NCBI GenBank assembly: GCA_905160935.1
Contig: CAJHZI010000815.1
Coordinates: 284,001-348,000 of the forward strand
Length of the DNA stretch: 64,000 nt
Source of the DNA: Enchytraeus crypticus
Taxonomy: Eukaryota; Annelida; Clitellata; Enchytraeida; Enchytraeidae
Direction of reading: 5' to 3'
Shown here: piece after piece, positions 31,890-55,321 of the stretch
Layout of the letters: each line of letters opens with the position of its first letter
Numbering within the stretch: position 1 is the first letter of the stretch
Translations under genes and position numbers: made by a program
The notes under the pieces: model-generated
Database searches by the model: none
The model's input: the letters and a program-made list of their open reading frames with translations, nothing else
What the model was told of the DNA's origin: nothing

Positions 31890-33242
31890 TTAAAAGTTTT
31901 CGTGACGATGAACGAAGAGCACATCGCTGGTGTAGGCGTTGTCCCTGGAGCAAGCCTGCTCAACGCTGCGAGTGAGGGGAGATGGTCCACGGCTGAACAC
32001 CTCGAATACATTAGTCGATGGATGCTCCTTCATGACGACTTTCAGGACTTCCGGGAAATCAGGTCGACCAAAGTGAATGGTGGACCTCAAACAAATGAAC
32101 AGACTCCTGTCTGAGATCTTCTGGAAGTGGCGCTCACATATGTACAGCATGGTGGTGCGGAAGTCAAACTTTCCCTTGAACTGTGTGATGAAGGTGTTAA
32201 CCACCACAATGTTGGAATGATCTTTCTGCTCCATCTCTCTGATGATGTCTGTCATCCACTCGAAGTGGCGCTGGGTGCGAGTCACCCAGATGAAGTAAAC
32301 CTTTTTACACATCATGTCCCGATTGCCTCTCTTCGACCTGTGAGCAATATCCTTGAGGATAGAAGCGAATGGAAAGACTCCAATGCCTCCACCAATCAAT
32401 ATGGACACCTCGTATTTACTCCAGTCGTGATGTCCTAATCCATAGGGACCGTCCAGATACACCTTGGGCAGGGGTTTCTTGACCAGCTGACGGGGGTCGT
32501 AAAGCTTTCGAATATTTTTCGTCCAGGGACCCACGGCCCTGACATGTATGCTGAGGTGGTTCTCGTGGGGCGCCGAGGTTAGGGTGAGGGGGTGGTACTC
32601 ACTGCCGCTGTGAGCCAGACAGGCTAGACGCACCCACTGCCTTGAGCGGTACTCGAAATTAGAAGGCTTCCTTAGCTCCAGGTATGTCACGTCCCGGGAG
32701 GTAGAAGTGCGCTCAGATTCCCCTCCCATCTCGCTCATCTCCAACTCCGATATCATAGAAAATTGATCCCCCCCAGTATCAATCAGCTGACTGATGCGCT
32801 CCTGCCTCATTCCCGCAGCACCAGGCTGCTGTTGATGTAGCAGTGGCGAACCAAACTTCTGCTGATCAGATCTCGTGGGAGCAGACTGAGCTCTACCGAG
32901 AGGCTGTATCAGAGCGTTGATCTTTAGACTGGACGGACGGTTGACGTGGAACGGTGAGAGCAGGTCAGCCGTGGGTTGAACGAAGCCATCCTGCGGCGGC
33001 TGAGAGGTGGCGGTGACAGGACGCAGATGAACCTGAGGGGTCAACCCAGCCGGTGAGCCGATCGGGTTCTGCGGGAAGCGACCCATGAGCATCCACGTTG
33101 ATCGCCTCACTGCGGAGTCACCCCTCGCAGTGACCAGGCTTGAGAGCAGAGGCCCTGCCCTTCGCAGAGGTATGTGGGTCGTGGAGAGCGGTGGGGGCAG
33201 GGAGCCAGAAGATCCTGGTGGGCTCACGGTTAACACTATACG
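31890..33242 (-). CDS. DUOX-like: Gene C last exon: linker, FAD and NADPH domains
   Basis: A 450-codon open exon ending at the natural DUOX-type C-terminus. The first 180 codons are low complexity; DUOX homology covers the remaining 270 without stops or shifts. Conserved pieces include KVYLDGPYG, KKVYFIWVTRTQRHFEWMTD, TTMLYICERHFQK and HFGRPDFP. A second possible acceptor (33277) is phase-incompatible with the upstream exon, so 33242 is preferred. Confidence 0.9.
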   Translation of the reverse strand, partial: RIVLTVSPPGSSGSLPPPLSTTHIPLRRAGPLLSSLVTARGDSAVRRSTWMLMGRFPQNPIGSPAGLTPQVHLRPVTATSQPPQDGFVQPTADLLSPFHVNRPSSLKINALIQPLGRAQSAPTRSDQQKFGSPLLHQQQPGAAGMRQERISQLIDTGGDQFSMISELEMSEMGGESERTSTSRDVTYLELRKPSNFEYRSRQWVRLACLAHSGSEYHPLTLTSAPHENHLSIHVRAVGPWTKNIRKLYDPRQLVKKPLPKVYLDGPYGLGHHDWSKYEVSILIGGGIGVFPFASILKDIAHRSKRGNRDMMCKKVYFIWVTRTQRHFEWMTDIIREMEQKDHSNIVVVNTFITQFKGKFDFRTTMLYICERHFQKISDRSLFICLRSTIHFGRPDFPEVLKVVMKEHPSTNVFEVFSRGPSPLTRSVEQACSRDNAYTSDVLFVHRHENF

Positions 33243-34353
33243 CTGTCGATCAAAGATGATGATGTTGTTGTTGCTTCTGGAGATTTAAATGAAGCACAGG
33301 CTGAATCTGAAGCCTCCACGACTGCAACTTCTTCTTCTGTTTTTTATGAAGTGTCTGATGGCTGCGATTATCAATCGGTCATGCTTCTCACGCTGTAGGC
33401 GATGATTTTCAGCATGATGATGATTTTCATGATGATTTTCATCACGCTGCAGTTCATGATGCTTTTCAGCACCGAGCTGTTCATAATATCCTTCAGCACC
33501 TTGCTGTTCATGTTGATCATCAGCACCGAGCTGTTCATGATCATCTTCAGCACTAATCTGTTCATAATGATCTCCAGCACAATGCTGTTCATGATGATCT
33601 CCAGCACCGGTCTGTTCATGAAGATCTTCAGCACCGTGCTGCTTATGATGATCTTCAGCAACGAGCTGTTCATGATGATCTTCCCTTTTGCTGATCATGA
33701 TCAGCACAGCGATGTTCATGATGTACGTCGGCACTATATTGTCCAAGATGATCTTTAGCACCATATTGATTAGGATCACTTTCATGGGCTTCCGCTAATT
33801 GTTTTTCTCTCTCTTTTCTCTTGAATACTAGCAGCTTATCGCATTGTTCTATGCAAAATTTTGTACTTCCATTGATCTTCTCGTCAGATACACTTACCGC
33901 GGACCCTGGAGTTAGATACGTGAGGTTGCTACCTTGACTCTCTCCCAGAACTGACTTGATACAGGTAACAGCCGCCTGTGAGGCCGTCAAGTTGCCCTCG
34001 AAAGGGTAGATTAAACGCACTTCAGACTCACGTATCATTGGCTTCATTCCAATTTCTAACCCTGACGCACCGAGCACAGCTGGCGTACCAAAAAGAGGTG
34101 CCTGCTCAAAAGTTGGAATCGGAGTGTCTCTCCCCACCTTAACTTCTGAGGAGTCATCGATGAACAGAGATATGCAATCACTACTAGACTGGTTGACTGG
34201 GATAGAACCGGCAAATCCAGACTTTCTCTTGTCGGACTCGGATTCCTGTAGGATCAGTTGATTGAACTGATGTTCTGAAGATCGACTCGGGGAGTCCACC
34301 TCCCGGTCTGCATTAGAAACGAACGCAAGAGCTGCGTTGACTACCACTGTATC
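31890..34353 (-). CDS. DUOX-like: Gene C: dual oxidase C-terminal (FAD/NADPH) region, partial gene
   Basis: Two exons are proposed on the minus strand: 34353-33898 and 33242-31890. Both junctions are phase 0; the donor is GCG|GTAAGT and the acceptor ATCGACAG. From VTYLELRKPSNFEYRSRQW to the terminal RHENF, the protein is co-linear with the ferric-reductase-type FAD and NADPH domains of metazoan DUOX. DUOX makes extracellular hydrogen peroxide by passing NADPH electrons through FAD and haems. Upstream of that region, about 330 residues of Ser/Pro/Gln-rich sequence replace the short linker normally expected. Key motifs are altered: HPLTLTSAP for HPFTLTSAP, GGGIGVFPF for GGGIGVTPF, and SRGPSPL where the NOX/DUOX CGP motif should be. 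Haem, EF-hand and peroxidase exons were not found. It may be a divergent DUOX, a partial duplicate or a decaying paralogue. Confidence 0.85.
33243..33897 (-). other. Gene C intron with 30-bp minisatellite
   Basis: The 33440-33790 part repeats a 30-bp unit (minus strand GATCATCATGAACAG, GGTGCTGAA) about 11 times. It stays open in several frames and reads as HHEQxGAED peptides. The upstream frame runs into it and stops at 33670; a different frame resumes. That is explained if this is intron rather than a frameshifted exon. Confidence 0.7.
33898..34353 (-). CDS. Gene C upstream exon: disordered region
   Basis: A 456-bp exon after the acceptor GTCGTCCAG and before a strong donor GCG|GTAAGT. Encodes 152 polar residues (..NADREVDSPSRSSEHQ..) with no recognised domain. 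It is joined in phase to the DUOX exon. Assignment to the same gene rests on phase, strand and splice sites, not on homology. Confidence 0.6.
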
Positions 34354-39850: not shown

Positions 39851-40105
39851 ATGCCACTGGACTCATACCGGACTCATACACTGGGAGAAGTCTCTTTAGA
39901 TAAGAACTCGAATGTTATACTAACCACCCCCCAATGTTCAACACCCGCCACCTTCAGGTATCTCTCCACCCCGGAATCCCCGTCCTCAGGGGATCCTGAG
40001 TCCCCGGAAGTTCTATTCGGGGGACCTGGGGTCGTCTCTAGTCCATTTCGTCCCCCAACCAAGTCAGAGAGGCACAAGAGAAGGCCGGCTTCTGACTCAT
40101 ATCAG
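39851..40105 (+). CDS. Gene B exon 1
   Basis: 85 codons, Pro/Ser-rich (STPESPSSGDPESPE), ending SDSYQ with donor CAG|GTAGGG, phase 0. The next exon begins DEYSVTYS, a natural continuation. Confidence 0.7.
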
Positions 40106-43100
40106 GTAGGGTAGTTTAATAAATCATAATAATAAATTAACCAATCAATTAGATAAAATTGAATAAATAAAACAGTAAGTATTCAGCCAATCAAGCATCC
40201 CATCTAGCAGTCAATCTAACACTTACAGTTGTTCAGACTGTAAATCGATTAGTTGGTCAGTCTTAAGTCAGTGAGTCAGAGAAGCAGTCAATTATCTTTC
40301 GCAATGGTTTTCACAATGACGTGCTTTGCTTTCCCCTTCTGTTTTTCTTATTGTGTAGCGGTTCGTCACTGACTTTAAAATGTATTATGATTCACTCATT
40401 ACTGACCTATGTAGCCAATCTAATAAGCAGGCGACCATAATAGTGACCGGTGATGGAAGAGATTATAGGAGATGGACTGATAATGTGGTGACAGACACGA
40501 GCGGAAAGAGTCTATTCGTATCCCGATCCCGGTTAAACTGGGATTAAATGAAAGATGATGATGACGATGATGATGATGATGATGTGATTGTGATTAACGG
40601 CATAACAGCGCTGGTATGCCGTTAACTGCCCTCTTATTTGTACAGTTGAGATTCAATTTGTAATTTTTCTTAATCTTATAAAAAGTAAAGTAAACACTCA
40701 TTATAGTGAAATTATCAACTATGTTGATATCTATCACTTTTAATACCACATGTTTAAACCGTTAGGCAATTTAGACCATTTTCCGTGCAACCAGTCCAGT
40801 GAATGTCTGAGATATTACTCTCAGATCAGCGCGGCTGGGATTCGAACCCACAAGTGTTCAATTCACCTCAGGATTTTTCATTTAAAACTTCATGACGTTA
40901 CCCTTACGCTATTAAGACATTCTATATGGGTTTTGTCTGATCAAATAGTGCGAAGGGCATCAGATTTAGTCATAACATTTTAAATGACCAATCCTAGGTT
41001 CCTTAAAATCCCGAGGGTCAAATGTCTAAGAATTTCATGTGACCTAATACGGGCAATGGCATAAACTGCCAATAATATTATAACATGCGGCATTGAAGGT
41101 GATAGATGAATATCATCTAAAAAACTGGTAAAGCTAAGGTTAACGTCAGCTTCCTTACTCGAAAGCGATGTCATTGATGGGCGATCCCATTATTTGAACC
41201 CCGCACATTATGATCCGTGGTTGAGTATCTTACCGATTTCGCCACTGGCTCCAGCCGATTATCATTGCTTGATATTGGAGTTTTCGTATGCTATCTGTCT
41301 CGATAACTATTTTACTATAAATAATAGACTAAACGACTACTTCTGGTGTCACAAGAGTCGAATAAAATGGGGCTAGGGTAGGATCTAGACACAATGCAAA
41401 GCCACATCCGGTGCTATATTTTTCAAATGAATAGCTACATTAAGATTTGAGAAAGTAATTCACCGGTAAAAGTATAAAAGCTAACGTTAACGTCAGTTTC
41501 CTCACTCGAAAGCGATGTCAGTGACGGGCGAGCCCAGGATTTGAACCCCGCACTTACTGATCCGCGATCGATTATCTTACCGACATCGCCACTGGCTGGA
41601 GCCAGTGGCGATGTCGGTTGATCAGATCAACCCATTGATTGATAATATGTTCTTCAACCTCTTAGAAAGTTGGCCGAATTACACAATTACTTTGAATTTG
41701 ACAGAACAATAAAGCGATTGCTGCAGTGTGTTGCAAGGTAACGCTTGAAACTGAGAATTTAAATCATAATCTGCACGTCTGTTTATCAGTCAGTTAAAGT
41801 CATTGACGTCAGTAAAAGCCAGTGGATATTAGAAAAAGTCAGTAAACATAAGAAAAGTCAATAAACGTCAGCTAAGTCTGCAAGAGACGTTCCTGACATT
41901 GCCATATGGCGAGAAACCGGACGTTGGATTCTTATAGATTGATTAATAAAATCAGTAAATGTCAGTTAAAGTCAATAAATATCGGCTAAAGTCAGAAAAC
42001 CTAAGTTAAAGTCAGAAAGCGTCAGCTAAAGTCAGTCAACGTCGGCTAAAGTCAATACTGAAACGTCAGTTAAAGTCAATAAAAGTCAGTTAAAGTCAGT
42101 AAACATAAGTTGAAGTCAGTAAACGTCACAAACCTAAATAGATCCACAGTTTGAACTTTACCGATGCTAACATATTCTCAGCCAATTCTGTTTATTCTAC
42201 TTTTAAATTTATTTCATTCATCAAAATGTATTTCAATTCTGAGAAATAAAAAAGAAACGTTCTCGCAAACCTGTCACTTAGATTGATGGCTACTACAAAT
42301 TCAACCATTACAAAACTAAGTGTAGAGGTTCCCTGCTCACAACCCATATCTCAATTCATTGGACCTACAAAAGAAATCAAAAACTCTAATTTTTCTTATA
42401 TCATTTAGTTGCCAAACCGAAATCTTCTGTAAGGCTGCTTTAACCTTTTGATCAAAAATTCTGGTGTCCTTGTTCATAACTCTTGCACCATTTCAGTAAT
42501 ATTAGACTGATTTATGATGTAACTAGTGTTCTATGTTTGTATTACAATCTCTATTATATACCTTTAGCTCTGCTTTTCTGTCATAAAGCACTGGTGGAGA
42601 TTCATTGGGCTTTTCACACGTTCTTTCTATCCAACAAGTTGATTGAAACCCTGCACGCATGAGTAACTCTGTATTGCAGGCTTCAAGTCATCGTCAACTT
42701 TAACTTAAAGACCAACTGTAGAGATATTTACTCTCAAAATAACATTGAAAACATCTCCTCCGCAATTCCAAAATATATGAGGGATATTGGAATATGTGAT
42801 ATGAAATACAATACTCTTAAGTATATGATTAACCAATGCATCATTTCTTTGGTCATGCGGTAAGAGGTAAGTCCTAAACACGAAACTTAGCTGAATGGCT
42901 GAAGCTACAGTCGTCGTTGATTCAGTCACGAGTAAAAACTAAAGCTAAAGTTAACGTCAGTTTTCTCACCCGAAAGAGATGTCAGTGACGGGAGAGCCCA
43001 GCATTTGAACCCCACACAGACTGATCCGCGGTTGAACATCTTACCGGCATCGCCACTGGCTCCAGCCAGTGGCGATGTCGGTAGTGCAGCAATGCTAATG

Positions 43101-46100
43101 TGTCAATAATTTATGTGCTCTTTTATTGTCAATTTTGGCCATTAAGAAAGTTGTGCGTATCACGTGTGCCTGTAGTTTTGGTCAATCACTCTTTAATATA
43201 TCACTGTGTGCATAGAATGAAATTGTGTCATACACAGTAATATTAATTGTTTTTGCACTTGGCTTTTTGAACTACGCACTACTTTGTATTTTAATATAGA
43301 TTTATGTGTTTTAATTTTATTGTTTTTACTCCTTACTTTACTTGTAGTTTCCATATGATATTAAATAAAATAAATAGTTATGTGAAATTTACGTGATTCA
43401 TGAAGTATTTCGAGACAACAATTTACCTTCAGGCAATTAGTATTTAAAGTAAACTGAATTGAATAAGATTTCTTTTGTTGTGCAGCGGAAAACGAAAATT
43501 TAAAAGAAATGTAATTAAAATACTTTAGATATTGAAATGTATATATGTGATTTGTTTGATATTTATATAAATTTCACTGGCTCACTGTGTAGATCTCTTC
43601 GAAAGGTTGCAGAATTAAAATTCGATGCTACTCTCTTCCTGTTATATAGATGTGAAACGGACGTTAAACTATTCTTTCGCAATAGCATTAACTTTTAGGT
43701 TGATTTGAACACGTAGCTGATTGTTTATCTATATAAAACAGGATGAATATTCGGTGACCTACAGTACAGATGGAGGACGACATAAAGCAGTCTCGAAGAC
43801 CTCAGACTCCCTTCAGGGCTCTCAGCGTCCTCGCTACCTACAGCGGGCCCGGGTAGTGTCGGGCGGCAGCTCCCAGGGAGGCTGCGACACGGCCTCGACC
43901 AGCCTGCCCGGTGGAGGCACCCTGAGCACCCGGGGCTCGTCGAGCCTGGCTAGGCGGGTCAGGCGCACCCAGTCGATGGTGCCCGCTAGTCTGGAGAGAC
44001 GAGCGGAGGGCGGGAAGAGGCGGAGACTGGAACTGGAGGGATACCACGAAGCTGACGTCATGTTCCATGATAACCCCGCCTTCAATATCGACAAGCATCC
44101 TGTGTATGGTTAGTAGATCTTTAGTAGGCTTTTCTCGCAGAATCCGAAAAACTGAGATTAAACCAGCTGTTAATTTCATTTTGATTGAGATGCGACTAAC
44201 CCAGTTATGACAATGAATAAGCATAGTAGATATTCGGTGTCGCGGTATTGATCACATTGGTTAGTCCGAGCAATTAAGCTAAGCCACTGTTTTTAGAACG
44301 CGGCCGCTATAGAATGCAAATATGCGTTATTGCAATTAACATACTAACATTACAATCTACTATCTTCAGCACTCCAGTTCATTCAGACTGGAGAGTGGAC
44401 ATTATTTCTCACCAGTCTTCCTTTTAATTACCAACTTTAACTTTAACACTTTAACTTATTTGCGCTTTGCGCAGAGCTGCAACTGGAGCGGCAGGAAGCA
44501 AGGTTAGCTGCTGTGGTGGAGAAGGACAAACGACTCTCAGTCGACAGCGCGGCTTCGGAGGGCAAACTAAAAACTAAAGACGAGAAGAGCAAAAAACGAT
44601 CGAGTCAAGAGATAGATAGGAATAAAATTACCGGAGAAACAAATCCTAGAGACGATTCATCGAGTAAATCATCGAGTTTAACTAGGGGATTATTTGGTGG
44701 GAAGCTTTCTCTAGAGACACCCAGCGTCAAGTCATCGGGGTCCGGGTCTCCTAAGCGACGGAAGGCGAGGGGCAACCCCGAGGTCTCCCTGGACAGGCGG
44801 CCTCACTCCCGAGCAGGCGAGAGAAGCAGCTACCCCTCGAGGTTCGGCTCAGCGCCCAGGTCGAGAGGATATCAGGATAGACTGTCGTGGAACGGAGCCA
44901 GCGCTAGGTAAATATTAGTTAATTAATCAACTAATCGATGAGCAAATCAATCAATCAAACAATCGATTCATCATTTAGTCAGTCCGACGGTCGGTCTTTC
45001 GATGAATCGATCGCATCGATAATACAATGAATCAAAATCATTCATTCATTCGTTCGTTCGTGAATGACTGAGTCTGAGTAAGTGTAAGCGAGCGAACGAA
45101 CGAACAAAATAAAGAACGAACGAATGAACGAACGAATGAGTGAAAGAAAGAAATTGACTCTTTACTGAAGCACTTCAGGTACCTCTATCAAAGTGCTGGC
45201 GATTCAACAGGCCTATAGTTTGCAGATGCTACTGAGATGTCTCTGTCATAGTCTTCAGGTAAGAAAGCGGACGTTCAACATTAAATATACTGATGATTCA
45301 CGTAGACTTTGTTTATTTCAGATCTAAGTCGACGAGTAACGGGAGCGGCGGGCGCTCGAGGTCCAGTCACAGCAAGACGTCGGTCAGTCGCCTCAGCGTG
45401 GGACGCCCGCGCATGACGCCGGAGTTCGCGGCGCGGTTAGAGCGAGAGCGCGCGAACAGCGAGCGGCGCAGGACCACCAGGGACCTCGTGTTCGTCGGTC
45501 GACTTGGCAACGCCTTCACGGCCTTAAAACGCTATCCAATCACAAACGAGCATCTTCCTACAGTTTTATTTATAGTCTTGGGGGCGTTGCTGCTAGTTAT
45601 TGGCGTCATTAGAGTGGCGGCGACGTATTGGTCGCAGTATGGCAGTGACTTCTGGTCAGGATTTCTGGTTCGTTGGTTTTATTGTTTGTACGCACTGATA
45701 GAAACCCGGTGGTTTATTGCAGGCCTGCTGCATTTAGGCTAGGTTGTAGTCTTTACTAGTTCGATCTTTGGTCGTCGAGTTGCAGCCATTGCAAGCTGAT
45801 TTCCCATTCAAGAACTGTATAATATGTGAAGAACATGTGAAGTATTAATTCAATTTACGAGTATTAATTTAGAATATATTTTCCCCGTGTTGTGTCCGGG
45901 TTGTTTGAAGAATTGATCAACCGGTGACTGCACGTGTCGTAGAAAGGCGACTTAAGCACTAAGATCCATACCTAAGTCAGAAAGGGCATTCGGTTGGTGA
46001 ACGCCTATGCTCCAGAAATCGCTACAAAAATTTAAACAAATGGAAAAGTCTCAAATAGAGGATTGACTAATGGTGTTGTTTAGGACAGAGAGGATTTGAG

Positions 46101-49100
46101 ACAGTCTATTTGTATCCCGATCCTAGTTAAATTGGGATTTAAGGAAGTATGATGATGATGATGATGATGAATTTAGAATATATGAAGAATAAGTGAAGTA
46201 TTAAATGTAAATGTTAGTCGAAGATGAGGAAGGCACAGGGGTCCACCTCGTCATAAGTAGAAACCCTAGTAATAAAGGTATGTAAAAAATAACGTTATAG
46301 AGGATCCACTCGTATGTGGACATGTGGCGGTGTGGCTAGAACCAGTGGCGATGTCGGTAAGATACTCGACCGAGGATCAGTATGTGCGGGGTTCAAATCC
46401 TGGGCTCGCCCGTCACTGACATCGTTTTCGAGTGAGGAAACTGACCTTAACCTTAGCTTTACCAGCTTTACATGAAGAGGAAACGGAAGATATAGATGAG
46501 TGGAGTCGTTATATACTAGACCTGCCAGTAGTCAGTGCACTATGAGAGAGAGAGATAGAGATGTGAAGTATTAATTAAATTTTCAACTGTTAAAAAACGT
46601 TAGTTATCAAGAACTTTGGCTGTTATTGGCTGGTTCAATTTTAAAACCAAACCGGTCCCTCAAATATTCCCTTAATAGAATTTCTTGCTTAGCATTACTT
46701 CAATCTAGTGACAGAAATGCATATTATTGTATATGAAATAAAAAAGCTTTACAAAAAAAGCTTTAACCGTAAGTTAAATGTCATAATTGGAGGCGTGATG
46801 GCTTCAATATAAAGCGCTCGGAAGATTCAATATTCGCTCCCGCTACCGAAAATATATTAGCTAGCAAATGCCTTCCCACCCAGACAGCAGTAATTAACAG
46901 TAGCCTTTTCAACAATATTATTAATACTAGTAGAAAGTACGATTATTAACATATCTCTCTTTCTTAGTGCACTGCCTACTGGCAGGTCCATGGTTTATAA
47001 CGTCTCCACTCTTCTCTGTCTCCCTCTTTCCTCTTCATTTCCATATATGCATGTGTCTTTAAAACATCGAACATACCTAATATCGGCCTGTCTCTGCCTA
47101 TTTTCCTTTCCATTATACCTTCTATGACCTCTATTAATAGACCTTCCCTAATTAGGATGTGTCCTATCGAACTCTTCTTCCAGTTTCTTTATACATTTTT
47201 AATTATGAACATGTTTTTAATACATTTTTAATTAACATATATTTTTTAATAATATGATATACTTAATAGTAACTGTAGATATTTCTTTTTAAAAATCTAC
47301 TCTCAACTTGGTGCTATTTCTTACTGCACAGATGCTGGTCCTCGGTTGTTTGGGGTTCTGGCATAATAAAGACTACTTTAGTAAATTAAAAGTGAGTAAA
47401 ATTTTAATACCTTTTATTATGTTTTCACTTAGCACTAATAATGAATAATAAAAAGCTTCACCTACTAAATAGTGTACTTCTATTTTATTTCATAATACTT
47501 CTAGCAAGGCTGTACAGCTAGAACCAATTATACTTATTTGCCGTTGTATGCTAAATCGTGAACGTGCTGCTTTAAACTCATTCACTTTGACTTATTAAGA
47601 CAACTACAATTAGTTGCAAGTCACAGATCTGAATACCTCTAAAAATTCTTGATTTTCTATTCTAGACTCGGAGGCATTTTTTGTTCTCCTACATTTACAA
47701 ATGCCATTGCGCACGTATTGACTGAGTTCCCCTGCTTAGTCACAGTTCTTGTAGTTTTCATTATTTCTTCCTTCTTCTCTGTGATACATAGAATCGTTGC
47801 TTTTTGACAGAGCAATTGCAGCTAGCGCGGATTTAAGAGTAATCTTTCAACACTCTAGAAACAGCTGTTTAATCTCTAGGCAAATTGCAAATTCAAATTA
47901 CAAATCAATAACTAACTACTAATTCATTCCTGAATTGAAAATAATTGTTTATGATTTGGTGATGTTTGCAGAATACGCTGTACATAATAACGGGTTGCTT
48001 AGCATCAATATCTGTATTGGTCGCCCATGGATTCAGTCTGTTAGTTCTAGTCCCAACAATCCACACTCTCATCCATACAGGGCCTGTCTCAGATAACACA
48101 ACTCTGAGGCAGTATCTTCTAGGCAATGCTTCCTTCAGTCTAAAGAAGTCTACCTATGAGCCAGTGTGAGTTCTAATATCTTAGATTTTACTGAGTTCAT
48201 TAGGAATTAATTATATAAATAATTAACTTTATAATGTTTAATTCCTAACTTATTAGCTCCGCTAATAAAGAGTGTATAGCTCTGCGATAAATTGATATAT
48301 CGAATGTGTTAAATGATCGGTTGATTTCAACCTTCGATGTTATTACTTTATTCTGGTTGTGAGATTAAGCTGTAATAATACATGTATATTAATAATTTAT
48401 TGCTTGTCTTATAAACCCCCGCTCTTAACTTAAGCAGTGTGAATTCACTGAAGTTAGTCCACGAGATAAAAATTGAAGAATGAAACAAATGAAGGACTGG
48501 TTCATTAAGGTCCATGTAAATTTTCAGTAGTTGTCCAAAGACACTTTCCTATCGAAGATCTCTACAACTCAAGAATATTGACGAGCTATTGAACACAAAT
48601 CAGAGCACTTCTACAAGATAACTCGCGGCTTGTGGCGAGGAACCGGACGTTAAATTCTTATTGATTGATTGATTGATCGATAACTCCTCAAGTTTCCAGT
48701 TCAGTCTTTGTTAGACGATTATTGAACTAGAACAGCTCTCGATGGCGTCACTGTTAGTGAATTTAGTTATAATTAAATTTGTAACTAAAGCAATTTAAAA
48801 CTACTGCCCAATTTCTTTCAGCTGGCGGCAGATCTGTATTTCCTTTGTGATTTCTACACTAAAATAATGACAAAATTGGACTTTGGAGTCTTTTTACAAA
48901 TTATTTTTATTCTACCATTTCTTTCAGCTTCCAAGGCGGTTGGCGGCGAATCTGAAAATACTTGAATCTCTCTAACTGTAGACTAAGCCAGAGTGGTAAA
49001 ATCGCTTACCGACTTCACCACTAGCTGGAGCCAGTCGGTAAGACATTCGACCGCGAATCAGTATGTGCGGGGATCAAATCCTGGGCTCGCCCGTCACTGA

Positions 49101-52100
49101 TCGCGCTTTCGAGTGAGAAAATTGACGTTAACCTTAGCTATTTTAGCTTTTTAGGTTCTGACTTATTTTCAGTAGGGTCAAGGTAAAATCAAATGTTAGT
49201 TCCGTCACTTACATACTTTCTGGAACTGACGAGTAAGCTTTAATGTAGTTATTCGTATTGATGTTACAACAGATCTGTAGATTTGAACCTGGTGCGGCTT
49301 AACCTCGCTCTGGATGTCATATCACTTGTACTACTCGCCGTGTCTCTGCATTCTCAAACATCCACTCTCGTCGCTCTAGACAACCACTGGGAGGCGGTGT
49401 ACGACATGACCGCTAAGGTATGAATACACCGTAATATAAGACATTTCAAAAACAATAACACAATTAAACCTTCAAAAGCTGAATACCTTCTCATCAGCAC
49501 TCCACAGCAGCGTAATAAAATGTCCAGTCAACCCGTAACATTAAAAAATGTCCCCATAATACCTACAGATTCTGCACGTAACCTTTGTGTAATTTTAAAA
49601 AAAATCTAAACTTTAAAACAAATATTTTAGTAGTCTGTCGTTCTTCTTTTTTCCATATCCGTCAATTACGTAAAATTTGTAAGTCCCTTGATATCAATTC
49701 TGCCACTGTATTAACTAATGCTCTTGTCTATTCTAAACTTAATTATTGTAACTCTCTACTGATTGATCTCCCGAAGACCTCTCTAATTTGTCTCCAACAC
49801 GTCCAGTATTCTCTTTCTCTAGTCGTCTGTAATTTTAAAATGTTCAAAACCCACACTTCTTTTCTTCGTAAGAAACTGCACTGGCTTGCAGTCTCTGAAC
49901 GAATAAAATTCAATATAGCTTCCTTGACTTTCAAAGATTTAAATTATGCTAGACCATCATATCTGTCTGATCGCTTATCAATCTATCAACCCTCTCGTAG
50001 TCTTCGTTCCTCTAGTAAAAATCTTCTCACTGTACCAAACATTAAACATTAAATCTGCCATTTGCAGATTTGATGTTTTCTGTTTCCTTCATATTTTCTG
50101 GTCCGACATTATGAAACTCTCTGCCGCAAGATCTTGGTACTGGTACTTTCCGTGGCAAGCTAAAAACAATCTCTTTCCGCCATAGGTTTAAATTTGACGC
50201 GCTTGCCTTGGATCTTGGACTTGCACTGTTTTTATCTCGCTTTCTCTTGTGGTCTCTCTGTACACAGTCGTCATCGTGTGGTGCTTTGGCGCCTCATTGT
50301 GTAGAGTCTGCAAGAGACGTTCCTGACATTGCCTTATGGTGAGGAACCGGACTTTAAGTTCTTATTGATTGATTGATTATTGATGGTTTGATTGATTGTA
50401 ATAGTATTGAATAACCTGCTTCCTATGTTCTTCTTTAGTTGCGAATCACTTTGTGCAGTCAATGAATTAATTGATATATATTAGTTGCCCATTAGTATCC
50501 CGACCCTAGTAAAACTGAGATTAAAGGGAAGATGATGATGATGATGATGATATTAGTTACTCATAATGTGCATGTACTGCAGTAAGTGTGTTGAAATTTT
50601 AGAATAGCTCATCACATTAAATATCCTAGGACTTTATGATGTGCATGCTAACATATTTGTACAATCTGTCATCATGCTAACATATTTGTACAATTCCTGC
50701 CTCCGACTAAAATATGTACCTGTATGCTTCAAAATTGCAAAAATTATCATGTTAAAGAAACCTGATAAGCCAGCTGAACTAGTAACGTCATATAGACCCA
50801 TCTCGTTGTTACCTGCAATCTCTAAATTGTTTGAAAAGTTATTGTTGAAACGACTCAAACCACTGGTCAACATTCCAGATTTTCAATGTGGGTTCAGAGC
50901 CCATCACTCGACAATCGATCAACCAAATCGGTTTGGTTACATCGCGTAATCAAAGTAATCGAATGCGCGTTAGAGGAAAAAAATACTGCTCTGCAGTTTT
51001 TCTGGATGTCTCCCAGGCGTTTGACAGAGTCTGGCATCAAGGCCTCATTCATAAAATGAACAAATTATTACCACAAAACTATTGCCAACTCTTGGAATCG
51101 TTTCTATCAAATCGTAAATTCACAGTATCACATGAAGAAGCATATTCTAACCTATATGAAATTCAAGCAGGAGTGCCGCAAGGAAGTGTAATTGGTCCTC
51201 TACTGTACCTCCTCTATACAGCAGATATTCCAACAACAGAGGGTACGTTTATGGGAACTTTTGCAGACGACACTGTAATAATGGTAACTGATGCTTGTCA
51301 GTTGAAGGCTGTCAGGAATTTGCAACTTGCTCCCGATGAAGTAAGCAGATGGACAAAAGATTGGAAAATCAAACTCAATGAGACAAAATCGGTTCATGTA
51401 ACATTTGCATTGGGCCATAGGAGCAACAATATTTACACTTACCTCAATGACCTACAAGTTCCTCAGGCAGATTCAGCTAAATACCTTGGCCTACACTTGG
51501 ATGCGAGATTGAACTGGAGATACCATGTCAAACAAAAAGCTGAGCAAATCCGGCACAAACAGCGAGAAATGTATTGGCTAATTGGACGCTACTCTAAACT
51601 CAGCCTGAGCAGTAAAAGGTTGATATATCAATCAATCATCAAGCCAATTTGGACATATGGTATTCAGCTTTGGGGTTGTACAAAGCAATCAAACCGGGAC
51701 ATTATTCAAAGAACTCAAAATAACTTCCTTAGAATGATTACTAATGCTTACCGCTTTGTAACCAATCAGGAGATACATAGCGACCTGAGTATCAAAGGAA
51801 TCGATGGCGTAATCCGAGAATACTCAGCAAAACATGAGAAACGTCTGCTAAATCATACTAACGTTGAAGCCATTCAGCTGCTAGATACTACCTGTGAATT
51901 GAGACGATTGAAAGAATCAAACCTCAAGAACTCGTTTCCTAGCCACTGGGGACTGCATATCATGCAAAGACGCTTGGGAGCTGTACGCTGGTTCAGCAAA
52001 CCCGCACACGACTGGCTTAAACTAATTATGTCCACTTCAAAAATAGTGATAAATTAACAAACGTTAAGATTGCCCTAAGCATATCCGATTAAGGATGTTT

Positions 52101-55100
52101 AAAAAAAAATTCTGTAATTTCTGTAATTTTCGAATTGCTAGAATAATATTTACTTTAAGCAATTGGATTGCAAAAGGAAGATACCGACTACGGTTTAGTT
52201 GTGCAGTGAAAAGTGCATTATAAAAAGCTAACACTAATACCTCGTTTAACATCAGTTTCCTGCTCGATATCGCATCAGTGACAGAAAGATAAAGCGTAAT
52301 ATAACGAATAATCTCGTTTCGTTTTTCTGTAAGATAAAGAAAGATATCTTACAGAAAAAATTCTCTTCCAAAATCCTTTGAGAATTGATGTATTTAAGAC
52401 CATCGTGGAATTTTGCTGACATTTTATATTTCACTTGTATCTCTTCTTTTCGTTTATGATTCTGCCGTTTTGCTGCTGGAGTAAATATCACTGTTCGCAT
52501 GGTGTCGTGAGAAGGCTGGCTAAGGTGAGTAGGCTATAAGTCTGCTTACGCTATGATTACGGAAGCAGCTCTTCCACAGATATATCCCAGCTCTTCCACA
52601 GATATATCCCAGCTCTTCCACAGATATATCCCAGCTCTTCCACAGATAAATCCCAGCTCTTCCACAGATATATCCCAGCAAAATCTCTTTTTCCAATTTC
52701 GCAGTTGCTTCAGTTACGTAATCTTTCATCGAGGGCTTAATGATCTGGAAGATGACTAGCACAAATTTACCATTCGTTTTTCAGATGCCCTATATATTTC
52801 TGTGGATGAGATGATGTAGGACAGAGAGAATTAGACACAGTCTATTTGTATCCTGACCCTAGCTAAACTGTGATTCAAGGGAAGATGATGATGATTTGGC
52901 CCCTATTTATTTCTATGTTTTGATGTTGTCTTAACCTCAGAGCTTTCAGTTGCTTTTATGTGCCCACGCTTGCAGTGCGACCACAGAGGTAACCCAGCCT
53001 ACTTCAACCCACTCGAGCAGATGACTCTAGGTCAGGTCGCTACGTACGTGGGGATAGTTCAGGTGATCACGTGGGATCAGGTCAGACTACATCCGAGCAA
53101 CGTCCTCAACGACTGGCATCATCGTGGCTCTCCCATATGGTCCGGAGCTCTGGTATGTGCCTCTACCTTAGGGCAGGGGATATGGCGTAACTGTTAGAGT
53201 GTTCGCCTCGGATACAAGTGGCCTGGGTTCAAAGCTCAGGTCGTGTCACGTAATGATGGATATCCCCTTCGGCCCATGGAAGGTTAATCTTGTATCGGAG
53301 CTTGCTGCCGATTGGCGCTATCAATAGCAAAGATATGATTAACCGTGGAAAGGATTAATAATAACATGCCAGGAACCTGTAAAAATGACACGAGTTGCCT
53401 AACGGCTTAAATATGTGGCATTAAAATTGATAGATATCAGCATGGCTGATCATTTCACAAAGATGTGTGCTATTATGATTTTGTTTTTGCTAGAAAAATA
53501 TAATTTTAACTCAGTTTCAAAATATGCACTTGATGTAGGTGCTGACACAGCTGAGCTTCAGCTTAATGGTTACTAAAGGCTGTAAATTTTGCACCAGTTG
53601 CCAAGAGCCCTGTTGATAGCACTCTTGCTCAATAGTTAAGAAGCCATGGCTTCCAAATCTTGCATATAATCTCTGGCAGTACGGATACTGAAACGAACGT
53701 TAACTAGAGTTTGTCTTAAGTATATTTATATATTTATATATTTATATATTTAGTTGTCTAGTTGTTTTAGCTTGTAGAAAACTACTTGAAAATCAGTTTA
53801 AGTTTGTTTAAAAGTTTTATTTAGCCCGATAGAAAATCTGAATCGAAACCTTCTGTTAAATAATTCATGTTGGTAGATTGCGTATTGTAAATAATGCAGT
53901 GATCATTGTACCCGGTGCAAGCAGTTAATAGTTCAAAACTAAAAGATAGTTTCTTCACTGAACGAGATTTGACTTTACCTTTCACAATTTAAATTCTAAT
54001 ATCGTGCTTGTACAAGTGTGAGTTGGCTAAAGCTATTAGACAATTATGTTTAGTCAACTTATAAAAAATGTTACTCGGTTTCACAAACGTCAGCTTCTCA
54101 TTAAAGTTTCTTGGTTCGTCTGACCTTTGTCCATTCTAAAGACATATGTCAAAAATTTGAAGTCTGATGTTATATTAAGATTTCAATTTTCTATTTCTTT
54201 TATATTCTCAATGTCATAGTACATGTAATTCAACAAAATATGATACTATCAAACTAAATAACATGTTTTTAAATATTTTATAATAAATTTTTAAATATCA
54301 AAGATTTTCATATTGTATCATCCATATTCCATATTGGTAGTTTAATATTCTATTTTATAGAATGTTTTTAAACAATTCTTTGAAATCAAAGAATAAATAA
54401 GACATTTTAAGACATGACAATATTCTCGTTGAGATTGAACGTGCTGGTGTTCGCACACGTTGCAGACGATCCTCGCCGGGCTGACGAGCACGCTGTACGG
54501 CAAGAGATCAGACCTGCAGCTCCTGGGGGTGATCGCTATAGTCCTGGAGGTTCTCTCTCTCGTCGCCAGCATCGTGGCTGTTGTCTTCAGCACCGCCAGT
54601 CTCGCCGCAGCCCTACGTGAGTGATATAATACTTCCATCATACTTCTTGTTTAACCCTCATACGTGTGGTTCAACCCATCATACTTCTGGTTTAACATAT
54701 CATACTTCTGATTCAACCCATCATTCTTCTGGTTTAACCCAGCATACTTCTGGTTCAACCCATCATTCTTCTGGTTCAATCCAGCATACTTCTGGTTCAG
54801 CCCATCATACTTCTGCTTCAGCCCATTATACTTATGGTTCAACCCATCATTCTTCTGGTTCAACCCATCATACTTGTGGTTCAATCCATCATTCTTCTGG
54901 TTCAGCCCATCATACTTCTGATTCAACCCATCATTCTTCTGGTTTAACCCAGCATACTTCTGGTTCAAACCATCATATTTCTGGTTCAACCCATCATACT
55001 TCTGGTTCAGCCAATCATACTTCTTCTTCAACTCATCATACTTTTGGTTCAACCCATCATACTTCTTCTTCAACCCATCATACTTCTGTTTTGCTAGAGT

Positions 55101-55321
55101 TAAAACTAAGGCCTATAAAAATTGCGGTATTTAATTTGCTCTATATAAACTTGGATTTTGCAGAGAACAAGGCCCAGATAGAGAAGGATGACGTTGGAGT
55201 TCTTTGCTTCTTTCACTTGACTTTCATCATCATTTCTATCGTAGGCGTGGTGTATGTGGTGGGCATTGTGTTTCGTCAAATCAAGCAGATGCTCTTTTCA
55301 TCCTCTGATAGCAGGGCTTAG
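39851..55321 (+). CDS. Gene B: multi-pass membrane protein with tandem CD20-like units (10 exons)
   Basis: Exons: 39851-40105, 43742-44108, 44475-44907, 45322-45667, 47332-47391, 47972-48165, 49273-49417, 52976-53152, 54466-54616, 55164-55321. All phases match, giving about 761 aa. Residues 1-429 are hydrophilic, basic and Ser/Arg-rich, so likely cytosolic. Then come hydrophobic segments at about 430-452, 462-477, 489-513 and 561-577. After a polar loop, further segments follow at about 616-633 (weak), 654-669, 679-700 and 720-746. In both halves the second helix starts with an aromatic or Ile plus W-S-G (FWSGFL at 462, IWSGAL at 654), as in CD20/MS4A and ENTREP-type tetraspan proteins. A role in membrane organisation or signalling is only inferred. 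I do not recognise an exact orthologue. The start codon is the first ATG of exon 1; an upstream exon cannot be excluded. Confidence 0.8.
40440..40590 (+). mobile_element. RTE-like LINE 3' end with (GATGAT)n tail
   Basis: Short 3' terminal fragment: GAGTCTATTCGTATCCCGAT, AAACTGGGATTAAATGAAAG, then GATGAT repeats. The same end occurs at 46055, 50485 and 52795, all in gene B introns and on the plus strand. Confidence 0.7.
40686..40926 (-). mobile_element. tRNA-derived SINE, family 2, full length
   Basis: Tail at left (ACTCATTATAGTGAAATTATC), B box read as GGGATTCGAACCCACAAG, head ending TACGCTATTAAGACATTC. Confidence 0.85.
41126..41256 (-). mobile_element. tRNA-derived SINE, family 1, full length
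   Basis: Reverse copy: GGTTAACGTCAGCTTCCTTA, TTTGAACCCCGCAC, CGCCACTGGCTCCAGCC. Confidence 0.9.
41476..41619 (-). mobile_element. SINE family 1 with inverted head duplication
   Basis: A full-length reverse copy whose head (ACCGACATCGCCACTGGCT) is followed, after GG, by its exact 19-bp reverse complement (41601-41619). Confidence 0.9.
41790..42130. repeat. 20-bp minisatellite (AGTCAGTAAACGTCAGTTAA), interrupted
   Basis: About 15 degenerate copies. The array is interrupted at 41877-41955 by the last 75 bp of a LINE (GAGACGTTCCTGACATTGCC, GAAACCGGACGTTGG, GATTGATTAAT). Confidence 0.8.
41877..41955 (+). mobile_element. LINE family B tail inside a minisatellite
   Basis: An extremely 5'-truncated insertion consisting only of the 3' tail. 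It matches 50305-50390 and 48620-48690. Confidence 0.75.
42131..42940. other. Gene B intron 1, unremarkable
   Basis: No exon was recognised. A 74-codon minus frame at 42705-42929 is not supported. Confidence 0.4.
42941..43082 (-). mobile_element. SINE family 1 with inverted head duplication
   Basis: Reverse copy ending CATCGCCACTGGCT, then CC, then AGCCAGTGGCGATG. The 20-bp arms have one mismatch. Confidence 0.9.
43083..43741. other. Gene B intron 1, 3' end
   Basis: AT-rich. A shared-tail-like GTGAAACGGACGTTAAAC is at 43652-43669. Acceptor AAAACAG ends at 43741. Confidence 0.45.
43742..44108 (+). CDS. Gene B exon 2
   Basis: 122 codons plus one base: Ser/Arg/Gly-rich (RRVRRTQSMVPASLERR), ending FNIDKHPVY. 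This exon is much more GC-rich than its surroundings. Donor TATG|GTTAGT, phase 1. Confidence 0.8.
44475..44907 (+). CDS. Gene B exon 3
   Basis: Begins ELQLERQEARLAAVVEKDKR across the junction, a short charged helix. It then becomes Lys/Ser-rich (EKSKKRSSQE, GSGSPKRRKARG). Donor CTAG|GTAAAT, phase 2. Confidence 0.85.
44930..45165. repeat. AATC/GAAC tetranucleotide-rich stretch
   Basis: Loose CAATCAAT and then GAACGAACGAAT repeats in intron 3 of gene B. Confidence 0.75.
45322..45667 (+). CDS. Gene B exon 4: end of basic tail, first helix
   Basis: Reads RSKSTSNGSG.., a charged helix (EFAARLERERANSERRR), then the hydrophobic VLFIVLGALLLVIGVIRVAA and FWSGFL. The proposed donor CTG|GTTCGT is weak. 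It is chosen because it joins in phase to exon 5 and gives an uninterrupted helix, FWSGFL-MLVLGCLGFW. Confidence 0.8.
45740..46054. other. Gene B intron 4, unremarkable start
   Basis: If exon 4 were not spliced, the frame would close at 45742. Nothing else was recognised. Confidence 0.4.
46055..46175 (+). mobile_element. RTE-like LINE 3' end, (GATGAT)n tail
   Basis: GTTTAGGACAGAGAGGATTT, CAGTCTATTTGTATCCCGAT, AAATTGGGATTTAAGG, then ATGATG repeats. Confidence 0.75.
46305..46560 (+). mobile_element. LINE family G 3' end split by a SINE
   Basis: GATCCACTCGTATGTGGACATG (46311-46332) resumes after the SINE as ACATGAAGAGGAAACGGAAG (46470 onward) and ends GACCTGCCAGTAGTCAGTGC with a GA run. The repeated ACATG at both borders looks like a target-site duplication. 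Confidence 0.8.
46333..46466 (+). mobile_element. SINE family 1, full length, inserted in LINE G
   Basis: GCTAGAACCAGTGGCGATGT, B box GGGGTTCAAATCCTGGGC, TCGCCCGTCACTGACATCG, tail GAGTGAGGAAACTGACC, then TTAGCTTTACCAGCTTTACA. Confidence 0.9.
46561..46959. other. Gene B intron 4, middle
   Basis: A possible tRNA-like relic lies at 46790-46860; otherwise nothing was recognised. Confidence 0.35.
46960..47195 (-). mobile_element. LINE family G 3' end
   Basis: Reverse copy: TTAGTGCACTGCCTACTGGC, TCTTCATTTCCATATATGCA, CCATTATACCTTCTATGACC, ACCTTCCCTAATTAGGATGT. Confidence 0.8.
47332..47391 (+). CDS. Gene B exon 5 (60 bp)
   Basis: Twenty codons, MLVLGCLGFWHNKDYFSKLK, between acceptor TGCACAG and donor AAA|GTGAGT. 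Completes helix 2 and the short charged turn to helix 3. Phase 0 on both sides. Confidence 0.75.
47392..47971. other. Gene B intron 5, with part of the 5S-composite repeat
   Basis: 47740-47855 matches the middle of 13640-13770 (ATCGTTGCTTTTTGACAGAG, GCAATTGCAGCTAGCGCGGA). The 5S-like ends are not obvious here. Confidence 0.5.
47972..48165 (+). CDS. Gene B exon 6: helix 3 and first loop
   Basis: NTLYIITGCLASISVLVAHG and FSLLVLVPTIHTL form helix 3. Then comes a polar loop with sequons (NTT, NAS), ending TYEP. Donor AGT|GTGAGT, phase 2. Sequons are consistent with an extracellular loop. Confidence 0.85.
48166..49003. other. Gene B intron 6, with LINE B tail
   Basis: 48620-48690 (GGCGAGGAACCGGACGTTAA, then GATTGATTGATTGATC) is a solitary LINE family B 3' tail. 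The remainder is unremarkable. Confidence 0.55.
49004..49151 (+). mobile_element. SINE family 1 with inverted head duplication
   Basis: The plus-strand SINE begins GGAGCCAGTCGG and is preceded by its inverted head (CTTACCGACTTCACCACTAGCT, 49005-49026, imperfect). It has B-box-like GGGATCAAATCCTGGGC and tail GAGTGAGAAAATTGACG. Confidence 0.85.
49273..49417 (+). CDS. Gene B exon 7: helix 4
   Basis: SVDLNLVRLNLALDVISLVL continues into LAVSLHSQ, then a polar stretch DNHWEAVYDMTAK. Acceptor ACAACAG, donor AAG|GTATGA, phase 2 in and 0 out. Confidence 0.85.
49425..50395 (+). mobile_element. LINE family B: ORF2 C-terminal region and 3' end with (GATT)n
   Basis: From 49440, broken frames read KAEYLLISTPQQRNKMSSQP, then SARNLCV, then RKICKSLDINSATVLTNALV, YSKLNYCNSLLIDLPKT, LHWLAVSERIKFNIASLTF and RPSYLSDRLSIYQPSRSLRS. 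This is the standard order of the CR1/L2-like ORF2 C-terminus. The 3' UTR ends GAGACGTTCCTGACATTGCC, GTGAGGAACCGGAC and (GATT)n. Multiple stops make it a dead copy. It starts only a few bases after exon 7. Confidence 0.85.
50485..50548 (+). mobile_element. RTE-like LINE 3' end, (GATGAT)n tail
   Basis: TAGTATCCCGACCCTAGTAA, AACTGAGATTAAAGGGAAG and GATGAT repeats. It abuts the jockey relic. Confidence 0.7.
50641..52057 (+). pseudogene. Jockey-type LINE reverse transcriptase, frameshifted
   Basis: Two overlapping frames (50641-50949 and 50888-52057) together cover most of a reverse transcriptase. Visible blocks are KPDKPAELVTSYRPISLLPA (finger), FQCGFRAHHST, CSAVFLDVSQAFDRVWHQGL (first catalytic Asp), QAGVPQGSVIGPLLYLLYT, and FADDTVI (catalytic pair, usually YADD). 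The jockey-like C-terminus includes YLGLHLDARLNW and IKPIWTYGIQLWGC. The frameshift lies near 50900-50945. No endonuclease precedes it, so it is 5'-truncated. It sits in intron 7 of gene B, same strand. Confidence 0.9.
52058..52559. other. 3' flank of jockey relic
   Basis: A9 at 52101 and, at 52225-52285, a reversed SINE/LINE tail fragment (GTTTAACATCAGTTTCCTGC). No exon was seen. Confidence 0.45.
52560..52682. repeat. 22-bp minisatellite
   Basis: About 5.5 copies of AGCTCTTCCACAGATATATC plus CC. Confidence 0.95.
52795..52895 (+). mobile_element. RTE-like LINE 3' end
   Basis: GATGTAGGACAGAGAGAATT, CAGTCTATTTGTATCCTGAC and GGGAAGATGATGATGA. Ends about 80 bp before exon 8. Confidence 0.75.
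52976..53152 (+). CDS. Gene B exon 8: second unit begins
   Basis: 59 codons: CDHRGNPAYFNPLEQ, the weakly hydrophobic MTLGQVATYVGIVQVITW, a polar loop and SPIWSGAL. Acceptor TTGCAG, donor CTG|GTATGT, phase 0 both ends. The exon boundary falls just after the WSGxL, exactly as at the exon 4-5 junction. Confidence 0.85.
53165..53470 (+). mobile_element. SINE with different tRNA head but family-2 tail
   Basis: Head GGGGATATGGCGTAACTGTT, AGAGTGTTCGCCT and B box CCTGGGTTCAAAGCTCAGG. The 3' end (TTGCCTAACGGCTTAAATAT, GATAGATATCAGCATGGCTG, ATCATTTCAC) is that of family 2. Confidence 0.7.
53471..54465. other. Gene B intron 8, remainder
   Basis: A shared-tail-like GATACTGAAACGAACGTTAA is at 53687-53706 with a tRNA-like segment before it, probably another SINE relic. 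The rest is AT-rich and featureless. Confidence 0.4.
54466..54616 (+). CDS. Gene B exon 9: helices of second unit
   Basis: TILAGLTSTLYGKRSDLQLL completes helix 2' and its turn. GVIAIVLEVLSLVASIVAVV then forms helix 3'. Acceptor GTTGCAG, donor CTAC|GTGAGT, phase 1. Confidence 0.85.
54650..55088. repeat. 21-bp minisatellite in gene B intron 9
   Basis: About 20 copies of TCATACTTCTGGTTCAACCC plus A. Because 21 is divisible by three, both strands are open throughout (THHTSGS and NQKYDGL peptides). The plus frame happens to join exon 10 in its true frame but not exon 9. Confidence 0.9.
55164..55321 (+). CDS. Gene B exon 10: last helix and C-terminus
   Basis: QNKAQIEKDDVGVL leads into CFFHLTFIIISIVGVVYVVG and a short basic tail FRQIKQMLFSSSDSRA, TAG at 55319. 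Acceptor TTTTGCAG. Confidence 0.85.

Follow-up and report, generated by a model that had tools for sequence, protein, structure and literature searches.

A candidate two-unit MS4A-type protein with a long basic N-terminal tail from a probable invertebrate

Introduction

MS4A proteins are thought to act as dimers or as dimers of dimers. Among the closest described systems to the protein considered here are CD20 (MS4A1) and the beta chain of Fc epsilon RI (MS4A2), which share with it the Pfam family PF04103 (CD20-like) and a W-G/S-G/A motif at the start of the second transmembrane helix (TM2), and which differ in having one unit and short tails. Vertebrate MS4A genes possess a phase-0 intron four codons after the tryptophan of the WxG motif, a position that we write as W+4. 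Longer forms have also been described: PMC2826416 reports five long MS4A genes, from chicken, platypus, and opossum, whose products contain at least two units in tandem, and takes such tandem proteins as support for dimer function. The same source concludes that invertebrates lack MS4A genes and suggests convergence; the CD20-like family is listed among metazoan-specific clusters in the later survey PMC5620054. ENTREP1/FAM189A2 likewise combines a CD20-homologous region with a long cytosolic part but, according to PMC8811627, is a single-pass protein with PPxY motifs in its C-terminal cytosolic tail.

Here, we analyze a locus within a 64-kb window (the whole stretch of DNA under study), which is part of a 524-Mb genome. 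A first-pass annotation of the window had held that known members of the superfamily have one unit, a claim that is contradicted by the tandem proteins of chicken, opossum, and platypus described in PMC2826416. Tandem MS4A proteins are thus already known; what this locus presents is a variant with two units and a long basic tail, from an animal that is probably an invertebrate. The window protein resembles the published tandem proteins in carrying two or more MS4A units per polypeptide; however, those are vertebrate proteins whose units resemble particular human MS4A proteins, whereas the units of the window protein are far diverged from each other, are preceded by a basic tail of 430 residues, and come from what is probably an invertebrate host. 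No invertebrate tandem CD20/MS4A protein appeared among the literature matches listed.

Results

Gene model

Splicing by reading of the sequence yields ten coding exons on the forward strand (39851-55321) that encode a protein of 761 residues, all introns being of the GT-AG type with matching phases (donors are written exon/intron):

39851..40105, + strand: coding exon 1, with an inferred start ATG at 39851 in an open frame and donor CAG/gtaggg; start of the basic N-terminal tail
43742..44108, + strand: coding exon 2, N-terminal tail, including FHDNPAFN
44475..44907, + strand: coding exon 3, N-terminal tail, Ser/Arg-rich
45322..45667, + strand: coding exon 4, end of the tail, TM1 of unit 1, and the first part of TM2 as far as FWSGFL, followed by the W+4 intron (phase 0)
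47332..47391, + strand: coding exon 5, unit 1 TM2 exon, 60 bases (20 codons), phase 0 on both sides
47972..48165, + strand: coding exon 6, unit 1 TM3 and a large loop bearing the sequons NTT and NAS
49273..49417, + strand: coding exon 7, TM4 of unit 1 followed by linker; phase-0 donor
52976..53152, + strand: coding exon 8, linker, TM1 of unit 2, and the first part of TM2 as far as IWSGAL, followed by the W+4 intron (phase 0)
54466..54616, + strand: coding exon 9, unit 2 TM2 and TM3 in a single exon, without a TM2-TM3 intron
55164..55321, + strand: coding exon 10, unit 2 TM4 and a short C terminus; stop TAG

The seven exons spliced in the first-pass annotation were all recovered in place, with GT-AG borders and consistent phases, and the three further coding exons upstream supply the tail. 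In these splice sites, which were picked by eye, G occupies position +5 in 8/9 donors (versus 22% of the 878 GT sites in the region), and all nine acceptors read CAG (versus C before AG at 28.5% of 912 AG sites). Coding sequence has a GC content of 54.5%, as against 36.4% for the introns. The donor after FWSGFL is weak (CTG/gttcgt) and, on reading of the bases, is the sole phase-0 option nearby. Exon 5, which is open in just one frame, is likely the counterpart of a 57-base TM2 exon found in single-unit genes of the same genome (see below).

From the sequence, one transcript probably spans both units. The competing arrangement is a pair of neighboring single-unit genes, the first ending after TM4 of unit 1 and the second beginning near unit 2. 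Read-through of the exon 7 donor (49418-49514) meets a stop after one codon (AKV*), and an AATAAA follows roughly 100 bases later, at 49514; exon 8 is closely preceded by an in-frame ATG (MCPRLQCDHRG); and the intervening intron is 3.6 kb long and contains a retroelement, all of which would suit two genes. Against this, exon 7 has a good donor (AAG/gtatga) and exon 8 follows a CAG acceptor, both in phase 0, and no separate first exon for the second gene was seen on reading the region by eye; we regard the two-gene arrangement as unlikely. A one-unit short form, produced by alternative polyadenylation after exon 7, is possible.

Several other elements were recorded in the window. Intron 7 holds, between the units and outside the protein, the reverse transcriptase reading frame of a retroelement (50849..52057, + strand, sense; RVT_1, E = 3.3e-24), and intron 9 is, by eye, mostly filled by an imperfect short tandem repeat of the cttctggttcaacccatcat type (54640-55090). 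On the reverse strand, positions 31890-33284 encode FAD- and NAD-binding domains (PF08022 and PF08030) that probably belong to the C-terminal portion of a gene of the NADPH oxidase type. A 776-residue open frame (14424-16754), Thr/Ser-rich with repeats and mucin-like by eye, matches no Pfam family with an E value of 0.1 or lower.

Layout of the protein

The tryptophans of the two WSG motifs (W463 and W655) lie 192 residues apart, in line with the earlier estimate of about 190, and each motif stands at the start of helix 2 as previously described (FWSGFLMLVLG and IWSGALTILAG). The basic character claimed for the 430-residue N terminus is also borne out: residues 1-430 have a pI of 10.5, with 78 K+R versus 47 D+E. 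Hydropathy gives five strong predicted helices (TM1, TM3, TM4, TM3′, and TM4′, primes denoting unit 2) and three weak ones (TM2, 1.25; TM1′, 1.03; TM2′, 1.03); human CD20 likewise has a rather weak TM2, at 1.44 versus the 1.25 and 1.03 of TM2 and TM2′. The MS4A topology comprises four transmembrane helices with an outer loop that is short between the first pair and longer between the second. By hydropathy only, the second outer loop measures about 40 residues in unit 1 and about 11 in unit 2, and both sequons present in the membrane part (529 and 539) map to the outer loop predicted for unit 1. The units are connected by a linker of about 35 residues.

The tail, which is predicted to be cytosolic and is probably disordered, contains 11 R-x-x-S sites and one NPxF motif (NPAF at 196), whereas NPAY at 606 lies in the linker; such sites may point to phosphorylation or an adaptor role. 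Since the 761 residues include no PPxY motif, the kinship with ENTREP (FAM189) that had been proposed for this protein was not supported; the long cytosolic part also sits at the N terminus here, in contrast to the C-terminal tail of ENTREP1/FAM189A2.

Matches to CD20-like families

Against the PF04103 cutoff of 27.9 bits, scores above threshold were obtained for the full-length protein (34.9 bits) and for unit 2 alone (32.3 bits; match at 648-715, across exons 8-10), whereas unit 1 alone falls below it (15.7 bits, E = 0.016). Unit 1 in fact scores better with DUF2157 (21.2 bits, likewise below the cutoff of that family, 32.4). Because shuffled unit 1 sequences match other families at E values down to 0.00053, the PF04103 value of unit 1 is weak, and profiles alone do not place this unit; among 25 listed of the 28 families matched by 20 such shuffles, CD20 is absent. 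We thus term unit 1 MS4A-like, rather than Pfam-assigned.

Comparisons to vertebrate proteins follow the same pattern. With a small vertebrate MS4A profile (CD20 plus two Fc epsilon RI beta chains), the score of unit 2 is matched by 0/3,000 shuffles and that of unit 1 by 43/3,000; adding unit 2 to the profile makes the result for unit 1 worse (413/2,999). In pairwise alignment with human CD20, unit 2 stands out (59/5,000 shuffles), and unit 1 is not significant (801/5,000). A sequence search of solved structures gave best E values of 0.18 for unit 1, 0.11 for unit 2, and 1.1 for a joint profile: the Fc epsilon RI beta chains ranked second and third for unit 2 (E = 0.5 and 1.1) and first for the joint profile (E = 1.1), which is not significant alone, and the three matches to unit 1 included no MS4A protein. 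A search of viral and prokaryote contigs returned no relatives of the units, as expected.

Single-unit relatives in the same genome

A search of the 524-Mb genome with PF04103 returned nothing at an E value of 0.001; with the limit relaxed to an E value of 10, it gave six weak matches to exons, none of which attained the cutoff. One of these (L009) reads, by eye, like a tetraspanin, and four (L010-L013) look, again by eye, like low-complexity or unrelated frames; these five were rejected. The remaining match (L014) proved to be a genuine exon of the MS4A type and encodes TM2 in a single-unit gene on contig C108:

C108, 963851-966661 (L014 and L015), - strand: single-unit MS4A-type gene; joined TM1-TM3 exons score 47.6 bits with PF04103 (E = 2.5e-12)

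Searching the genome with this gene produced 18 matches (E = 8.5e-29 to 2.2) on five contigs: C108 (six matches), C562 (three), C586 (two), C100 (six), and C385 (one). The six C100 matches are TM1 exons spread along about 175 kb. The C562 gene exceeds the PF04103 cutoff (34.6 bits), and two C100 genes, each represented by its joined TM1-TM2 piece, are under it (17.1 and 17.8 bits). Searches for close copies of the units themselves recovered four matches for unit 1, all its own exons, and four for unit 2, three being its own exons and one a locus with repeat-like frames by eye (L004, E = 1.67).

GT directly follows W+4 in 10/11 TM1-exon loci of single-unit genes (nine detected by script, plus L031 after frame correction), which is consistent with an intron at this position, although the intron is uncertain in L025, where the frame runs on; the exception, L020, looks frame-disrupted. 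In all four genes examined (C108, C562, and two on C100), the W+4 intron is joined to a TM2 exon of 19 codons (57 bases), placing a second phase-0 intron at W+23; for C562 and the C100 genes, the scan for this exon allowed 18-21 codons. Contig C586 shows the same 57-base exon. The single-unit genes of C108, C562, and C100 therefore share the W+4 phase-0 intron and the small TM2 exon with the window gene and differ from it in having one unit, a TM2 exon of 57 rather than 60 bases, and no long basic tail in the exons read.

Codon 112 of human MS4A1 we take to be W89+23, using a CD20 sequence consistent with five of the junction motifs in the published splice-site table. In that table (Table 1 of PMC4774009), the canonical splice sites are read as falling after codons 53, 112, and 191, all in phase 0. 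The position of intron 4 of MS4A1 was not found in the accessible parts of PMC4774009, PMC3628892, PMC12732648, PMC13079139, PMC8776166, and PMC11899878.

The phase-0 intron reported just after WSGxL in both halves of the window protein is present as described, at W+4 in units 1 and 2. A second phase-0 intron occurs at W+24 in unit 1, and unit 2 has none there. The W+24 intron of unit 1 lies next to the W+23 position of MS4A1; its exact homology is likely, if short of certain, given a possible insertion in this turn of unit 1.

Comparison of the two units

Local alignment of the halves scores 67, as against 34.5 ± 5.5 for segment-preserving shuffles of both, with 6/20,000 shuffles reaching 67. 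The only gap in the alignment precedes TM2, and no further gap interrupts it from shortly ahead of W455/W647 to TM3 inclusive; both units carry the motif WxxxGSxxWSGxL. The earlier expectation that the halves align above chance holds for part of their length: by segment (5,000 shuffles), the fractions are 0.0134 for TM1 and 0.0002 for the loop plus TM2, whereas TM3 (0.67) and TM4 (0.18) are at chance. With both WSG motifs masked, 593/10,000 shuffles attain the masked score, and the alignment signal is thus narrow; unconstrained global alignment is likewise weak, its score being attained by 12/1,000 shuffles.

These limits bear on whether unit 1 belongs to the family at all or is instead a hydrophobic stretch of other origin whose WSG arose by chance, leaving unit 2 as the only CD20-like unit. 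The subthreshold Pfam score, the failure of TM3 and TM4 to align, the effect of masking, and the chance-level comparison with CD20 all favor an unrelated unit 1. However, both phase-0 introns of unit 1 match the positions typical of the family exactly or to within a single codon, which makes a chance resemblance unlikely, and low shuffle counts recur against the single-unit gene C100a (0/2,000), unit 2, and the vertebrate profile. We therefore consider an unrelated unit 1 improbable. The claim of two CD20/MS4A-type units in one protein stands in so far as PF04103 matches the whole protein and unit 2 and both units resemble C100a, and falls short in that unit 1 alone is under the cutoff; on the sequence evidence, a two-unit MS4A-type protein is likely.

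Comparisons with paralogs were uneven. Scores with C108 were marginal for both unit 1 (188/5,000) and unit 2 (301/5,000). An HMM of the genome's own TM1 exons gave no support above shuffles for unit 1 (4,521/4,970) or unit 2 (412/5,000), this being a model that awards human CD20 just 2.4 bits, omits L020, and contains a misread row for L031. Over TM1-TM2 (z scores, plain shuffles), unit 1 scores 8.6 with C100a, 5.5 with unit 2, 4.7 with C108, 4.2 with C100b, 3.7 with CD20, 3.5 with C562, and 2.1 with Fc epsilon RI beta; the corresponding values for unit 2 are 7.8 with C100a, 7.4 with Fc epsilon RI beta, 5.5 with unit 1, 3.5 with C100b, 3.5 with CD20, 2.4 with C108, and 0.7 with C562. For both units, none of 2,000 shuffles reached the score with C100a; however, these scores are the best of 13 comparisons, and C100b, a near twin of C100a, does not equal them. 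They should therefore not be relied on in isolation.

Duplication or fusion

That the shared phase-0 intron reflects an exon-block duplication, as first proposed, holds only in part: the intron is real, but the same intron occurs in single-unit genes of the genome, and we rejected it as proof of duplication. An intron common to the halves is a family trait and supports membership rather than internal duplication as such; a fusion of two separate family members would show the shared intron too.

Such a fusion, in which two different MS4A-type genes were joined with no internal duplication, is a serious if less favored alternative. Over TM1-TM2, each unit scores higher with C100a than with the other unit; the second intron of unit 1 is absent from unit 2, the introns between TM3 and TM4 differ in phase (2 and 1), and, apart from the WSGxL intron, no introns of the two units coincide. 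There is also a precedent, in that one tandem protein of platypus has unlike subunits, according to PMC2826416. Pointing the other way are the WxxxGSxxWSGxL motif common to both units, a whole-unit score between the halves (67) that exceeds those of units 1 and 2 with C108 (51 and 44) or CD20 (42 and 52), and a TM1-TM2 z score (5.5) above five of the six other pairings of unit 1 and four of the six of unit 2. Taken together, the sequences lead us to lean slightly toward internal duplication over fusion.

Discussion

We favor, with a probability of roughly 0.6, the reading that the locus is one gene encoding two tandem MS4A four-helix units behind a long basic tail, with a built-in dimer and a role in organization or trafficking. 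At the level of sequence, this reading draws on the gene model, the family match, and the conserved intron positions.

How such a protein would work can be sketched more tentatively, as a covalent MS4A pseudo-dimer with cytosolic ends, which is the mechanism we put forward, though as possible rather than probable. Each MS4A unit is predicted to start and end in the cytosol, and the linker of about 35 residues would tie the two protomers together, such that the dimer is built in and the halves could have diverged. Unit 1 would retain a glycosylatable outer loop, and the outer loop of unit 2 would be very short. The protein would most likely organize partner membrane proteins or trafficking, and the basic tail would bind lipid or cytosolic partners.

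More speculative still is that the locus represents an old invertebrate MS4A subfamily (a fused dimer with specialized halves and a long basic N-terminal tail) that arose independently of the vertebrate tandem genes, in which case the MS4A unit and its exon structure may predate jawed vertebrates. The single-unit genes of C108 and C562 in this probable invertebrate, which are over the PF04103 cutoff and have a W+23 phase-0 intron as in human MS4A1, bear on the view that invertebrates lack MS4A genes, and the introns bear on the origin of the MS4A family. A natural fused dimer, if this is what the gene encodes, would reveal the surfaces through which MS4A protomers meet and whether two such protomers can take different roles.
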